Below, in pieces: positions 19,637-48,802 of a stretch of DNA of 64,000 bases; position 1 is the first letter of the stretch, and each line of letters starts with the position of its first letter. A model generated the notes under the pieces. The model was not told where the DNA came from and made no database searches. It saw only the letters and a list, made by a program, of their open reading frames with translations. This DNA is from Ardenticatenales bacterium (lineage in GTDB: Bacteria > Chloroflexota > Anaerolineae > Promineifilales > Promineifilaceae): NCBI GenBank assembly GCA_020634575.1, contig JACKBM010000023.1, positions 1 to 64,000 of the forward strand, given 5' to 3'. The translations under genes were made by a program, and so were the position numbers.

Positions 19637-20083
19637 AAGAAAGCCAACCGGACTAGCTATGTGGCGTGGCCTGACCAATTCAGATTTATCTGAGGCCTGA
19701 CACCCCGTCGATAGCTTTAGCGACAACTGAAGATTGAGTGGCCGTGAGGCTTGCCGTGGCCCGTTTCATGGTGGCGGGTGGTGTCTGATGGCCTCTCTTC
19801 TTTGTGTTTGCTTTGTCACCGAGCACACAAGAGTTCTTTTTGTGCGCCAGTATCCTGATGTGATCTGTTGGTGGGTGATGTAAAGCCAGCCCCTCAGGGG
19901 GTTGGCTAAGTCATTGCTCTTCCCGCCGCCAGCCTGGCTGGGCCGGTGTGAATTGCCATTTGTAATCCCATCATTTCCCGCTGACATAAGCGCTATCTTT
20001 GCCATTTGACAGCAACAGCGCAGATGGTTGCCTATGTGCAGTAATGACACATTTGGTTGGTTCAAATTAAGGAGAGGCAACCT
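19637..20083. other. Intercistronic region between pufA and pufLM
   Basis: 447 bp with no gene. It contains TCAGATTTATCTGA (a 5-6-bp hairpin near 19680) and a stronger 10-bp hairpin at 19884-19907. In other phototrophs the space after the antenna genes holds mRNA-stabilising hairpins that keep antenna transcript above reaction-centre transcript, and that role is plausible here. Confidence 0.6.
19884..19907 (+). promoter_or_regulatory. Intercistronic hairpin in puf mRNA
   Basis: AGCCAGCCCC (19884-19893), loop TCA, then GGGG(G)TTGGCT (to 19907) forms a 10-bp stem with one G-U pair and a bulge. No T run follows, so it is more likely an mRNA stability element or attenuator than a full terminator. 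Confidence 0.5.
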
Positions 20084-21973
20084 GTGACTACAGAATATGT
20101 TACCCCATCAGTCATTCCGCAAAAGCCCAGTATTGAGGGCGAGCGGCCCGCCATAGATCGGGTGCCTGAAGGCGAGGCGATTCCCTTTGCCGAAGTTGAA
20201 AAACAGTATCGCCGTCCAGGCGGCACCTTGCTGGCGGCGGCCATCGGCGCTGATCCTTTTGATTTCTGGATTGGTCGCTTTTACGTTGGGGCGTTTGGCG
20301 TCTTATCGCTTGTCGGCATTTTCTTCGGCGTAGCTGCATATCTATATCAAGCCTGGGTCGTTGAAGGCGCTTACAATCTGCTGAGGGCCCGTATCGATCC
20401 GCCGCCGGTAAGTAATGGTCTGCGCTTCGCCGCCGCTGGCGAGCCAGGCTTCTTCTGGCAACTGATCGTGATTTTTGCCACCATTGCATTCCTGGGCTGG
20501 CTATTGCGCCAGGTGGATATTTCCCGCAAACTCGGTATGAGCTATGAGATCCCGATCGCCTATGGCGCCGTGGTGACCTCATGGCTTACCCTGCAATGGC
20601 TCAGACCACTGGCCATGGGCGCCTGGGGCAACGGTTTCCCGCTAGGTATTACCCACCATCTGGACTGGGTTTCCAACGTGGGTTACCAATATTACAATTT
20701 CTTCTTTAACCCATTCCATGCGATCGGTATCTCGCTGCTATTTACCTCAACCCTGATACTGGCGATGCATGGCTCCGCTATCCTGAGCGCAGTAGATAAG
20801 CCCAATGTGAACGAGCGCAATGTCGATGGCTTCTGGCGCAATCTGCTGGGCTACAGCATTGGCGAAGTGGGTATCCACCGGCTCGGTTTCTGGCTGGCGA
20901 TGGCGGCTGTTTTGTTCGCCAATATCTGTATCTTTCTTTCAGGCACGCTGGTCTATAACTGGGCGGGCTTCTGGAAGTTTTTTGATGGTCTGCCGTTCTG
21001 GGAAGGCGCCGCTGCCGGCACCTTACTGTTAGGCGGTGGGGCAGTGGCTGGTGTCGTCTGGCGCGGCCGTAGCCAGGCCAAAGTCGATATGGATGAGGTT
21101 GAATATGGTGGGCGCGGTATCGATGGCACGGCGCTGCGCAAGACCTACCATGTCCCATTTCTCAACCGTCTGTTTGGCGTTGGCCAGGTGGGGCCCGTTT
21201 ACCTGGGCGTCGCCGGCGCTATCGCAGCTGTCTTTGGCGGCTTCGCCGTGTTTATCATCCTGGAAAACTATCTTTTCCAGGTTGGTTACAATCCCATCCT
21301 TTTCCTGAGAGAGTTCTTTGTCCTGACGGTTAATCCGCCGGCGATGAGCTACGGGCTGGGTATGGCGCCGTGGCGCGAAGGGGGGGCCTGGATAGTATCG
21401 ACCTTCCTTATTAATGTCTGCGTCGTGGCCTGGTGGGTTCGTGTTTATGGCCGGGCCAAAGCGGCCGGGTTGCGTCCCAGTTTGGCCTATGCATTCGCTT
21501 CCGCGCTCTTTCTCTACTTCGTTATCTACCTGGTCCGTCCCCTGATGATTGGGAACTGGGCGCAGGCCCCGGGTCAGGGATTCAAGGCCTTGCTTGACTG
21601 GACCAACAATGTCAGCATCCAGTTTGGCAACTTCTACTACAACCCGTTCCACATGATCTCCATCTTCTTTCTGCTTGGCTCTACGCTGCTGCTGGCGATG
21701 CATGGCGCCACGATTGTGGCGACGTCCAAGTATGGCTCTCATCGTGAGATTGAAGAGATGATGGCAGAAGGTTCGGGAACGCATCGAGCCCAGCTTTTCT
21801 GGCGCTGGACCATGGGGTTCAACGTCAACTCCAAGACTATTCATGATTGGTGCTGGTGGTTTGCCATTATGACCGTGATTGCCGGTGGTATTGGTCTGCT
21901 GCTTTCGGGCACGGTCATTACCGATTGGTATAGCTGGGCGCAAGGCATCGGCATTGTCGCGCCGTTACCTTAA
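20084..21973 (+). CDS. pufLM: Fused photosynthetic reaction centre L and M subunits
   Basis: A 629-residue type-II reaction centre in which L (about 1-330) and M (about 340-629) are one frame, as described for Roseiflexus, where the product is cut into two chains. L ligands: His192 in 'HHLDW' (L153 type), 'NPFH' (L173), 'MHGS' (L190), 'GIHR' (L230). M ligands: 'NPFH' (M202), 'MHGA' (M219), 'TIHDW' (M266). The M182 His is Leu503 in 'ALLDW', as in Chloroflexus, which predicts a bacteriopheophytin at that site. The M210 position is also Leu. The GTG start at 20084 has GGAGAGG before it. Confidence 0.95.
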   Translation: MTTEYVTPSVIPQKPSIEGERPAIDRVPEGEAIPFAEVEKQYRRPGGTLLAAAIGADPFDFWIGRFYVGAFGVLSLVGIFFGVAAYLYQAWVVEGAYNLLRARIDPPPVSNGLRFAAAGEPGFFWQLIVIFATIAFLGWLLRQVDISRKLGMSYEIPIAYGAVVTSWLTLQWLRPLAMGAWGNGFPLGITHHLDWVSNVGYQYYNFFFNPFHAIGISLLFTSTLILAMHGSAILSAVDKPNVNERNVDGFWRNLLGYSIGEVGIHRLGFWLAMAAVLFANICIFLSGTLVYNWAGFWKFFDGLPFWEGAAAGTLLLGGGAVAGVVWRGRSQAKVDMDEVEYGGRGIDGTALRKTYHVPFLNRLFGVGQVGPVYLGVAGAIAAVFGGFAVFIILENYLFQVGYNPILFLREFFVLTVNPPAMSYGLGMAPWREGGAWIVSTFLINVCVVAWWVRVYGRAKAAGLRPSLAYAFASALFLYFVIYLVRPLMIGNWAQAPGQGFKALLDWTNNVSIQFGNFYYNPFHMISIFFLLGSTLLLAMHGATIVATSKYGSHREIEEMMAEGSGTHRAQLFWRWTMGFNVNSKTIHDWCWWFAIMTVIAGGIGLLLSGTVITDWYSWAQGIGIVAPLP

Positions 21974-41028: not shown

Positions 41029-41159
41029 TGCAGTTGATTCTGGTTGTGAACGCTACACTGCCGGCCAGCGAGCTGGCCGAGCGACAGGAATGGGGCAGTT
41101 TTTTCCCTGATGGCTGCGCCGTCCCGTTGAAAATTCGCCAGGCGAGGACCGGCCGGTGA
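41028..41159 (+). CDS. 43-residue ORF coupled between bchH and bchD
   Basis: A small ORF of 43 codons starting 'MQLILVVNATLPASELA'. Its ATG overlaps the bchH stop (TGATG) and its TGA overlaps the GTG start of bchD by 4 bp. This exact stop-start coupling on both sides suggests it is translated, perhaps to carry ribosomes from bchH into bchD. It has one Cys and no recognised domain. It could also be a decayed remnant. Confidence 0.5.
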   Translation: MQLILVVNATLPASELAERQEWGSFFPDGCAVPLKIRQARTGR

Positions 41160-42976
41160 GCGATATCCCCTTCCACGCACTCGTTGGCCTTGATGCGGCC
41201 CAACAGGCGCTGCTGCTGCTGGCCGTAGAGCCACGCTTGCGTGGTCTGGTTGTGGCCGCGGGCGCCGGCACCGGCAAATCGACATTGGCTCGCGGCATGC
41301 GCCAGCTGCGCGGCGCGGAGACAATCCCCTTTGTAGAGATACCGCCGGGTGTAGATACGGCCAATCTCTATGGCGGTCTGAATCTGGAAGCAACCTTGCA
41401 GCGCGGCGAACTGGTGTTGCAACCCGGGGTACTGGCCCGGGCCCACGGCGGTGTTGCCTATGTCGATGGCCTGAACCTCCTGACCGATACCAATAGCAAT
41501 TTGCTACTTTCCGTCCTGGACCAGGCGGTTATTCAGCTGGAACGAGAAGGGGTGAGCTGGCGTATGCCGGCTGAGATTAACCTCATCGGTTCCTATGATC
41601 CGGCTGAAGGGTTGCCGCGTCGTCATCTGCTGGATCGCCTTGGCCTCTGGGTAACGTTACCCGCGCAATATGACGCCGGCGAACGCACGGCCGTGATCCA
41701 GCGCAATTTGCATGATCAACTGGATAGTTGGGGTGAAGATCTGCACTTTTTGCAGGGTCTGGTGGCCACCGCACGGGAGACGTTGCCCGCCATTCAGATC
41801 ACAGAGCAACAGGTTCGTCTTTTAGCCCAATTGGCCCTACGCTATGGCGTCGAAGGTCAGCGGGTGGATCTGTTTGCGGTGCGAGCAGCTTGTGCCGCAG
41901 CAGCCCTGGCGCTCAGTCCGGTTGTTGAAGATGAACATCTGGCGCTGGCCGTCCGGCTGGTGATCGTCCCGCGCGCGACCCAGATACCAGAGCAGAGTTC
42001 TGAGCCGCAACCGCCTCCGCCCCCACCGCCACCCGATCCGGAACCCCCCGATGAGGGCGAGCCCGAAAGTGACGCGGCCCAGCTACCAGAGCAATTGGCG
42101 CTGCCGCCAGAACAAATCCTGGAAGCGCTGGCAGCCGAACTGCCCGTCGAGCTGGAAAGTTTGCCTTTTCAGAATCTGCGGCGGGGCCGGTCGGGTTCGC
42201 GCGGCAGTACCGAAGGGAAACGGGGCCGGCACATTCGCTCCATTCCTGGCAACCCGCGCCAGGCTCGTATCGATATTGTGTCCACCTTGCGAGCCGCGGC
42301 GCCCTGGCAGCCAGCGCGCCGGCAAGCCCGGGGTCTGGTGCCAGAACAGGGCCGGGGCCAACGTCCTCTGCTGGAAATGTCGGATATCCGAGTCAAACAG
42401 TATCGTAGCAAGGCGGGGGCGTTGTTTTGTTTTGCCGTGGACGCCAGCGGCAGTATGGCCCTCCATCGTATGCGCCAGGCCAAAGGGGCCGTCAATGCTT
42501 TGCTGCAGAAAGCGTACGTGAACCGGGACAAAGTTGCCCTGATCTCGTTTCGTGGCGAAGAAGCCGAACTGCTCATGCCGCCAACCCAGAGTGTTGAACG
42601 GGCGCGCCGTGCCCTCGATTTGTTGCCCACGGGGGGCGGTACCCCGTTGGCTTCAGCGCTCCTATTAGCAGCTGATGTGGCTGAGCAAGCTCGCAGCCGG
42701 GGCATCTTACAAACCGTGCTAATATTGTTGACTGATGGTCGAGCGAATGTGGCGCTCCATCAGGAAGGCTCGGTACAGACAGAATTGCAGCGTCTCGGCC
42801 GCCATTTGTCTGAGGCGCCGCTGCAAATTATTGTGCTGGACACCCAGCGCAGCTATCTGAGCCGGGGGGAAGCTCGCCAGCTTAGTGAATGGGTTGGTGG
42901 TCTTTATGCCTACTTGCCCAATGCCAGCGGGGAGCAAATTGCCGATCTGGCTGCCCAGGTTGCCGGCGGCCGTTAG
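41156..42976 (+). CDS. bchD: Magnesium chelatase subunit D
   Basis: A 606-residue protein. The N-terminal AAA+-like part (about 1-250) keeps the P-loop 'GAGTGKST' and 'GSYDPAEGLPRRHLLDRLG'. A Pro-rich/acidic hinge (about 285-310) leads to a C-terminal von Willebrand A domain with the MIDAS motif 'DASGSMALH'. It forms the ATPase ring with BchI and links it to BchH. The GTG start at 41156 overlaps the upstream small ORF. Confidence 0.94.
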   Translation: MSDIPFHALVGLDAAQQALLLLAVEPRLRGLVVAAGAGTGKSTLARGMRQLRGAETIPFVEIPPGVDTANLYGGLNLEATLQRGELVLQPGVLARAHGGVAYVDGLNLLTDTNSNLLLSVLDQAVIQLEREGVSWRMPAEINLIGSYDPAEGLPRRHLLDRLGLWVTLPAQYDAGERTAVIQRNLHDQLDSWGEDLHFLQGLVATARETLPAIQITEQQVRLLAQLALRYGVEGQRVDLFAVRAACAAAALALSPVVEDEHLALAVRLVIVPRATQIPEQSSEPQPPPPPPPPDPEPPDEGEPESDAAQLPEQLALPPEQILEALAAELPVELESLPFQNLRRGRSGSRGSTEGKRGRHIRSIPGNPRQARIDIVSTLRAAAPWQPARRQARGLVPEQGRGQRPLLEMSDIRVKQYRSKAGALFCFAVDASGSMALHRMRQAKGAVNALLQKAYVNRDKVALISFRGEEAELLMPPTQSVERARRALDLLPTGGGTPLASALLLAADVAEQARSRGILQTVLILLTDGRANVALHQEGSVQTELQRLGRHLSEAPLQIIVLDTQRSYLSRGEARQLSEWVGGLYAYLPNASGEQIADLAAQVAGGR

Positions 42977-47188: not shown

Positions 47189-47914
47189 ATGGCTGAAAAA
47201 TCATCACGATCACGGCGGGCCCGTCGCGAAGAGGTGCAGGCCAGGAAACAGCGGCAGCGTATAGTTGCCGGTGTGATTGGCGTTGTGACCATTGTCGCGC
47301 TAGGTGCCCTGTTTTATTTTGCCCAGCGGGCCGACGAGGTTGCCATCGAGGATGTCAATCTGCCGGAATCGCTGACTCTCCCCGCCAATGCCGATGGGGC
47401 GGCCTGGGGACCTGTTGCTGCGCCGGTGCTCATCGAAGAGTTCGGCGACTATCAATGACCGTTCTGTGGGCAATTTGCCACTGACGTGGGACGTCAGCTA
47501 GAACAGGTTTATGCAAGCAGCGGTCTGGTCCGCTTTGAATTTAAAGATCTCGCCTTCATCGGCAATGAATCCATACGCGCGGCTGAGGCCGCTTCGTGCG
47601 CCAACGAACAGGGGCAATATTGGCCCTACCATCACACCATCTTTGCCAATCAGCGTGGCGAAAACCTGGGTGCCTTTAACGACGAGGCGCTCAAAGCCTT
47701 TGCCGCCGCCATCTCGCTGGATCAGGATTCGTTTAACGAATGTCTGGATAGCAATCGGTATCGCAATTCGGTCCTTCAGGCGGCCAACATCGCCCGGGAT
47801 CGTGGGGTGAGCTCAACGCCGACGGTCTTCCTCAACGGCCAGTTGGTCGAAGGCCAGATCACGTTTACGCGTTTGCAACAGCTGATTGAAGGTGCATTGG
47901 CCGGCTCCAACTAA
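47189..47914 (+). CDS. DsbA-like thiol oxidoreductase, probable selenoprotein (TGA = Sec90)
   Basis: A 241-residue thioredoxin-fold protein read through an in-frame TGA at 47456-47458. The N-terminus is basic with one membrane helix (about 30-50). The DsbA domain starts with 'EEFGDYQ', then TGA at codon 90, then 'PFCGQFATDVG'. In this family the motif is normally CPFC, so the TGA falls exactly on the first redox Cys and the active site would be U-P-F-C (Sec90, Cys93). The frame stays open after the TGA, with family motifs 'FEFKDLAFIG' and 'GVSSTPTVFLNGQ'. A SECIS-like stem-loop follows. AAGGGA precedes the ATG. The alternative is a nonsense mutation of a Cys codon or a sequencing error. Confidence 0.75.
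47459..47507 (+). promoter_or_regulatory. Candidate bacterial SECIS element
   Basis: Directly after the TGA, CCGTTCT (47459-47465) can pair with AGAACAGG (47500-47507, one bulge). Higher up, CTGACGT (47481-47487) pairs perfectly with ACGTCAG (47491-47497) around the loop GGG. The loop starts 29 nt after the TGA, within the spacing usual for bacterial SECIS elements, and contains the required G. The fold was drawn by eye. Confidence 0.65.
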
Positions 47915-47920
47915 ACGTCT

Positions 47921-48802
47921 ATGAGCGATTTCCGTTCAAGGGCCGCGTCTTTCGCGGCCGACTATGGCGCCATCCTGGCTTTGCTGGTTGCTCTTACGGC
48001 GACACTGGGCAGCCTTTATTACAGTGAAGTTGCGGGGTTTGTGCCCTGTACTTTCTGCTGGTACCAGCGGATACTGATGTATCCGCTGGTTTTGCTTATC
48101 TTCATCGGCATCTTTCGCCATACCGAAGCGCTACCCTCGTTTGTCCTGCCGTTGTCGCTGCTGGGCGTGGTTGTTTCGGGCTACCATGTGTTATTGCAGA
48201 ACGGTCTGTTTGGGGAATCGGGCACCTGTACCATTGGCGTACCCTGCAGCATTCGCTACGTCAATTATCTCGGCTTCATCACCATTCCCCTGATGTGCCT
48301 GACGGCATTTGTGATTGTCTCTGCCTTGATGCTGTTGCTGCTGGCTGGTGAACCGGCCGGTGCAGACACAGAGCCGCGCCTGGCCACCAGCCAGATCACG
48401 GGCATCGGTCTGCTGCTGGTCGCGCTACTGGCATTGTGGGGCGTCGCCTTCACCGGCCGCCCGGCGAGTGAGACAACCCCGCCCGAAACCAGCGCAGCAA
48501 CCAGTGAAGGCGAGGCGCTTTTTAATCAGACAACGCTTGGTAGTGGCCCCGGCTGTATGGCCTGCCATTCAACCGATGCGGCACGCATTACGGTGGGTCC
48601 GAGCATAGAAGCAATTGGCCAGACAGCGGCTGAGCGCGTGCCCGGCCAAACTGCAGAAGCCTATTTGCGCGAGTCGATTCTCCAGCCAGACGCATACGTG
48701 GTCGATGGCTACGTACCCGGCATCATGTACCAGCTGTACAGCGAGTCCTTAACCGAGGCGCAAATAGACGCTCTGGTAGATTACATGTTGGCCCTGGATT
48801 GA
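47921..48802 (+). CDS. DsbB/BdbC-like membrane protein fused to cytochrome c
   Basis: A 293-residue protein. The N-terminal part (about 1-145) is DsbB-like with four membrane helices and the four expected Cys: Cys43 and Cys46 in 'PCTFCW', Cys103 and Cys109 in 'CTIGVPC'. A further helix (about 160-180) and a linker lead to a C-terminal cytochrome c domain (about 195-293) with heme site 'CMACH' (Cys212, Cys215, His216) and a likely Met ligand in 'PGIMYQ'. DsbB reoxidises DsbA and usually passes electrons to quinone; the fused heme offers another exit. It follows the DsbA-like gene by 6 bp, so the pair should work together. Confidence 0.87.
   Translation: MSDFRSRAASFAADYGAILALLVALTATLGSLYYSEVAGFVPCTFCWYQRILMYPLVLLIFIGIFRHTEALPSFVLPLSLLGVVVSGYHVLLQNGLFGESGTCTIGVPCSIRYVNYLGFITIPLMCLTAFVIVSALMLLLLAGEPAGADTEPRLATSQITGIGLLLVALLALWGVAFTGRPASETTPPETSAATSEGEALFNQTTLGSGPGCMACHSTDAARITVGPSIEAIGQTAAERVPGQTAEAYLRESILQPDAYVVDGYVPGIMYQLYSESLTEAQIDALVDYMLALD

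Follow-up and report, generated by a model that had tools for sequence, protein, structure and literature searches.

A gene at positions 47189-47914 of the window (the whole 64,000-nucleotide stretch of contig JACKBM010000023.1 from an Ardenticatenales bacterium that was analysed) very probably encodes a membrane-anchored, extracytoplasmic thiol oxidase of the DsbA/BdbD type with a nucleophilic Sec90-Pro-Phe-Cys93 active site, in which UGA would be decoded as selenocysteine (Sec) through a SECIS element. Sequence comparison supports this reading: the TGA is conserved and the gene constrained, a conserved, covarying hairpin is linked to that TGA, and relatives have the Sec machinery. In the proposed mechanism, the bacterial SECIS hairpin at 47481-47497 would recruit SelB, which together with tRNA-Sec would decode UGA 47456-47458 as Sec and so supply the nucleophile of a BdbD-like oxidase. 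The host of the window would itself decode UGA as Sec, and the product would act as a disulfide oxidase outside the cytoplasm. The features considered here are as follows.

47189..47914, + strand: candidate DsbA/BdbD-type gene with Sec, 241 residues (TGA as Sec90) plus TAA stop, from translation, Pfam and matches to solved chains
47261..47317, + strand: predicted hydrophobic N-terminal anchor, residues 25-43, mean Kyte-Doolittle 2.48, preceded by a basic stretch
47456..47458, + strand: putative Sec codon TGA, at the N-terminal, nucleophilic Cys of CPFC
47456..47467, + strand: predicted active-site motif U-P-F-C, from translation and protein alignment
47469..47479, + strand: possible small accessory hairpin, 4 pairs, loop AUU
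47481..47497, + strand: apical SECIS hairpin (predicted), 7-bp stem 47481-47487/47491-47497, loop GGG 47488-47490, 29 nt after the TGA
47486..47914, + strand: mechanical 142-aa ORF with GTG start, read as the C-terminal part of the same dsbA gene
47921..48802, + strand: DsbB/BdbC fused to a cytochrome c domain (Pfam DsbB 1e-11, Cytochrom_C 8.6e-06)

Translation revealed a frame from ATG 47189 to TAA 47912-47914 whose sole interruption is TGA 47456-47458, and read-through yields 241 residues with the motif DYQ-U-PFC. A sequence-only reading of this DNA had placed the TGA exactly at the first Cys of CPFC, with DsbA homology continuing past it, and this was confirmed: the Pfam Thioredoxin_4 match (1.4e-31, residues 70-234, 110.3 bits against a cut-off of 23.2) spans the TGA, as does the DSBA match (PF01323; 3.9e-15, 56.6 bits against a cut-off of 25.6). 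With TGA read as Cys, the columns of U90 and C93 were invariant in 22 aligned proteins, and T210-P211 of the TP loop was conserved among the aligned homologues. A domain above the Pfam cut-off, a UxxC motif and a TP loop, which together mark a DsbA/BdbD thiol oxidase, were thus all present, and solved DsbA and BdbD chains matched the product at E 6.9e-20 to 1.1e-16. The basic N-terminus followed by hydrophobic residues 25-43 suggests a membrane-anchored product with an extracytoplasmic catalytic domain. The 142-aa ORF at 47486..47914, likely to be picked up by gene callers, is probably not a separate gene. TGA terminates 13 of the 31 ORFs listed for the window, a list that takes in unproven ORFs, and therefore is not globally recoded, in agreement with the earlier statement that it serves as an ordinary stop nearby. 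The whole window gave no Rfam match at the gathering threshold, and ARAGORN found no tRNA or tmRNA in it.

Codon at the active site and selection on the gene

Homologous loci were collected by a contig scan of genomes, from which the best 80 of at least 546 confirmed loci were taken, and by a second search of 56 genomes of one order (the order of G001), which supplied additional loci. Active-site rows were accepted at E 1e-5 or better, with identical neighbourhoods counted once and the window included, resulting in 100 distinct rows; matches stopping short of the active site (L025, L114) were excluded. The codon at the Sec site was TGC in 50 rows, TGT in 27, TGA in 21, TCG in one and TCC in one, corresponding to Cys in 77, TGA in 21 (window included) and Ser in two of the 100. 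The window thus has an in-frame TGA aligned with the catalytic Cys of homologues, as is characteristic of selenoproteins, and the homologue alignment that the sequence-only reading had proposed as a check returned relatives with TGA (20 sites) as well as with Cys. Neither TAA nor TAG occurred at the site in any of the 100 distinct rows; this absence alone is weak evidence, because TGC and TGT reach only TGA in one step. The 20 TGA sites of relatives lie in 18 genomes, 15 of which are Chloroflexota of various kinds according to their record names, while the remaining three (G069, G086 and G095) belong to the order of G001. G013 and G015 have two TGA sites each, and the pair in G015 may represent strain copies.

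Some variants of the active site were also observed. The TGA-type homologue of G095 (L113:1480-2205) has U-G-Y-C replacing U-P-F-C, with the same hairpin. Two-domain fusions of DsbA-like proteins are encoded at three loci (L064:11299-12669, L064:9752-11134 and L042:9752-11140). A UPGC motif and a different hairpin, 17 nt after the TGA, occur in one L064 copy, and CxxC is lost from the second domain of two fusions, with TCC in L064 and TCG in L042 at the Sec site.

The protein search found 1168 homologues. Of the 120 listed, 11 are pieces of 136-146 residues from the C-terminal part, starting shortly past the active site at varied positions. The closest are 92% and 87% identical to the window product over 58-59% of the query. 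As read from the proteins alone, these pieces are what would be expected if the stop had truncated the gene calls. Automatic annotation seems to cut these genes, and with 11 such pieces in a listing of 120 the family is probably under-counted.

Downstream of the TGA, dN and dS were, respectively, 0.037 and 0.485 for the pair L108-L110, 0.099 and 1.653 for L098-L100, and 0.234 and 1.337 for the window and L098, values similar to those of the Cys control pair L107-L109 (dN 0.098, dS 1.467); the pairs L098-L099 and L100-L115 were too similar, with few changes, for dN/dS. By these estimates, the half of the gene 3' of the TGA is under purifying selection. Decay beyond the stop, which would have spoken against the earlier reading, was not the rule: in 18 of the 20 TGA genes of relatives, the DNA seen has no second in-frame stop before the expected end, although one of the 18 is truncated by a contig end. 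L097 and L108 have an additional in-frame TAA, 88 and 107 residues past the TGA, so that both may be broken or misread copies. A tree of 98 rows, from which both Ser rows (under 60 bits) were omitted, showed TGA and Cys rows intermixed, with 6 changes, at least 5 of them forced by well-supported branches.

The hairpin downstream of the TGA

The sequence-only reading had described a two-part stem-loop after the TGA, laid out like a bacterial SECIS. Its apical hairpin (47481-47497) proved to be conserved with covariation. Its lower stem (47459-47465/47500-47507) exists in the window's own fold and is absent from the consensus of 20 TGA sequences, and was rejected as a conserved SECIS part. The stretch 47456-47510 folds at -20.6 kcal/mol (z -2.69), with 3 of 200 shuffles as good. 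According to the available part of PMC13188914, bacterial SECIS (bSECIS) criteria are a loop of 3-9 nt, a stem of 4-16 bp, G in the first two loop bases, a distance of 16-37 nt from the TGA and an energy of at most -7.5. By these criteria, as that part gives them, the window hairpin fits in all five respects (loop GGG, 7 bp, 29 nt, -8.6 kcal/mol), as do 14 of 20 hairpins including it, the other 6 exceeding the energy limit only; a strict five-criterion scan of whole sites found a fitting hairpin at 14 of 21 TGA, 7 of 77 Cys and 0 of 2 Ser sites.

The hairpin score considered a stem whose loop starts 16-37 nt past the codon with G in its first two bases, and nulls and Cys controls were treated identically. 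The 16 scored TGA sites had a mean of 18.0 against 10.9 for the synonymous-codon null, with 12 of them at p <= 0.05, whereas the 73 Cys sites had a mean of 9.7 against 9.4, with only 3 at p <= 0.05. The difference between TGA and Cys sites was significant with the window left out (Mann-Whitney p 2e-9), a p value that is partly post hoc because the score was devised once folds had been seen; the fold energy of the whole 54-nt stretch did not distinguish TGA sites from Cys sites (p 0.21). The stem position is shared by 15 of the 16 scored TGA sites (loop at 28-29 nt), the exception being the second L064 copy, with another stem and its loop at 17 nt (p 0.07); once later loci were added, the hairpin position was common to 19 of the 20 TGA sites of relatives. 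In 20 aligned sequences, 93.6% of stem cells were paired, against 22-59% for slid versions of the stem that served as control, and 3 pairs were changed on both sides; pair 29-39 was AU in 9 sequences, GC in 7 and GU in 4. The first loop G was invariant among the aligned TGA hairpins. Judged from these alignments and scores, a conserved, covarying hairpin tied to the TGA is predicted to form, and Cys sites have no excess of it. The accessory hairpin at 47469..47479, with 81.3% of cells paired in the 20 sequences, is weakly supported, and RNAalifold pairs this region differently.

These data bear on the possibility that an ordinary Cys DsbA gene is decaying after a nonsense mutation, or that a sequencing error has put a wrong base in it. 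The change from TGC or TGT to TGA takes a single step, and two relatives do carry the additional TAA, but the identical TGA recurs in 18 other genomes, the two close database relatives (92% and 87%) also start shortly after the codon (as seen in proteins only), purifying selection acts 3' of the TGA, and the covarying hairpin is linked to it; this explanation is consequently considered very improbable. The combination of a covariation-backed SECIS with at least 5 supported switches between Sec and Cys on one tree means that gains and losses of Sec can be placed and tested.

Selenocysteine machinery and neighbouring genes

The genomes with a TGA homologue were searched for the Sec machinery. 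SelD over cut-off with one in-frame TGA was found in 18 of 18, SelA over cut-off in 16 (missing in G012 and G015), SelB over cut-off in 15 (not in G003, G008 and G014) and tRNA-Sec over 60 bits in 14 (not in G002, G011, G014 and G095), so that 8 of these 18 genomes, mostly metagenome-assembled drafts, were without at least one of the four parts. SelB over cut-off was also found in 27 of the 35 genomes searched that have Cys homologues; the machinery was therefore set aside as a means of telling TGA genomes from Cys genomes, as it permits the TGA and does not predict it. An in-frame TGA was present in the SelD of all 19 genomes searched (G001-G015, G066, G069, G086 and G095), and SelD is therefore probably itself a selenoprotein in them.

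Read-through of UGA by a different mechanism that inserts Cys, Trp or some other selenium-free residue would agree with the Cys of most homologues. One metagenome homologue, P0005, has Trp at the Sec site (DFQ-W-PFC, known from the protein only), which is perhaps a TGA called under code 4 and not a true TGG. Such read-through appears even less probable than a mutation or error, given that relatives possess SelA, SelB, SelD (with its in-frame TGA) and tRNA-Sec, that the hairpin fits the bSECIS model in the form available to us, and that other ORFs of the window end in TGA. Least probable of all is the production of an 89-aa anchor peptide and, from GTG 47486, a separate 142-aa protein: both mechanical ORFs exist and C-terminal pieces of relatives are listed in databases, but the 142-aa product would contain neither active-site residue and only part of the thioredoxin-fold domain, the listed pieces begin at varied positions, and conservation is continuous across the TGA.

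Genomic context analyses further confirmed that the host is a phototroph, as had been claimed. A photosynthesis gene cluster within 14190-42976 contains fused PufL-PufM, PufC, an NifH/BchL-like protein, two nitrogenase-like subunits, two PucC-like and several Mg-chelatase-like genes. One ORF (20057-21973; two Photo_RC domains, 638 aa) encodes both PufL and PufM, an arrangement also present in G066. This genome, which belongs to the order of G001, is the nearest phototroph found among 396 genomes of the class; its PufLM is 75% identical to that of the window, and the gene order is the same from pufLM to the gene matching 41156-42976. SelA, SelB, tRNA-Sec and a TGA-bearing SelD are all present in G066, and no close orthologue of the Sec-DsbA was found there, the best match by E-value being 35% identical. 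A distant DsbA-like gene of G066 (L133, around 1600; 26% identical) has a TGA in DYL-U-GAC, followed by a foldable stretch.

The DsbB-cytochrome c gene follows dsbA, with six bases between them. This fusion adjoins the TGA dsbA in five genomes, namely that of the window, G001, G002, G015 and G069 (loci L001, L002, L097, L100 and L025 in the relatives). The DsbB proteins near Cys homologues (L102-L104, L107, L109, L111 and others) are without CxxCH, and so are those of the TGA loci L004 and L006. A database search with the DsbB-cytochrome c protein returned fusions as best matches, and the taxon-labelled matches with both domains are Chloroflexota, such as Promineifilaceae, Ardenticatenaceae and Caldilineaceae; three full-length relatives lie on contigs equal in length (10924, 13250 and 97791) to those of truncated DsbA pieces, which suggests that the contigs are identical. 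A literature search on DsbB-cytochrome c fusions in Chloroflexi found no paper. The fusion is a likely partner of the Sec-DsbA, and its adjacency suggests that it receives electrons from the Sec enzyme and would reoxidise it. A dedicated selenium-dependent disulfide pathway, leading from folding proteins to Sec90, then to DsbB and the fused cytochrome c, is a tentative proposal, more probably wrong than right; if true, disulfide formation would be linked directly to the electron-transport chain of a phototroph. With a putative extracytoplasmic Sec thiol oxidase beside such a fusion, why selenium pays there becomes a testable question.

Comparison with known families

The best NCBIfam match was NF041057, the Rcas_1661 family thioredoxin-like (seleno)lipoprotein (9.2e-35, residues 62-234), at 120.4 bits against a curated cut-off of 190, and therefore the gene is a relative of this model and not a member. 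When 10 TGA relatives (of the 20 sites) were scanned against NF041057, two fused two-domain proteins passed and eight failed. The tag Rcas presumably denotes Roseiflexus castenholzii, a phototrophic member of the Chloroflexota. The sequence-only reading had called a selenoprotein thiol oxidase in such a host notable; the interpretation is supported, and the finding is less surprising than claimed because this curated model already covers a thioredoxin-like (seleno)lipoprotein of probably Roseiflexus. A literature search on Rcas_1661 found no paper, and among selenoprotein papers on Chloroflexota, Chloroflexus and Roseiflexus none was about this family, judged by title and the start of the abstract. 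The window product resembles NF041057 as a thioredoxin-like Sec protein with UxxC, and differs in having a basic N-terminus and membrane anchor where the family name implies a lipoprotein start.

Sequence matches also connect the product with BdbD (3eu3; 1.1e-16) and 'Disulfide bond protein A' (3bci; 2.6e-16), two Cys enzymes of solved structure, from Bacillus subtilis and Staphylococcus aureus, respectively. BdbD is a membrane-anchored oxidase whose partner is BdbC; both solved enzymes have CxxC, and BdbC is not known to carry a cytochrome c fusion. The window product differs from them by its predicted UxxC and by a likely DsbB partner fused to cytochrome c.

UxxC DsbA-like and DsbG-like selenoproteins have been published (PMC1088965, PMC1794560, PMC5029168, PMC9312934 and PMC13188914). 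In the parts of these papers available, the hosts named for the DsbA-like proteins are Anaeromyxobacter, Desulfovibrio, Desulfotomaculum and Asgard archaea, three selenoprotein families are counted in Chloroflexi without being named (PMC1794560), and a UxxC 'DsbG-like protein' carries the accession NF041057 (PMC13188914). Like the DsbA-like selenoproteins as described there, the window gene encodes a DSBA-domain protein (PF01323 over cut-off) with Sec, as predicted, first in UxxC (U-P-F-C) and a SECIS just 3'; unlike them, it has Thioredoxin_4 and not DSBA as its best Pfam match. The assignment of the window gene as a further UxxC DsbA-like selenoprotein, of an already published kind, is well supported.
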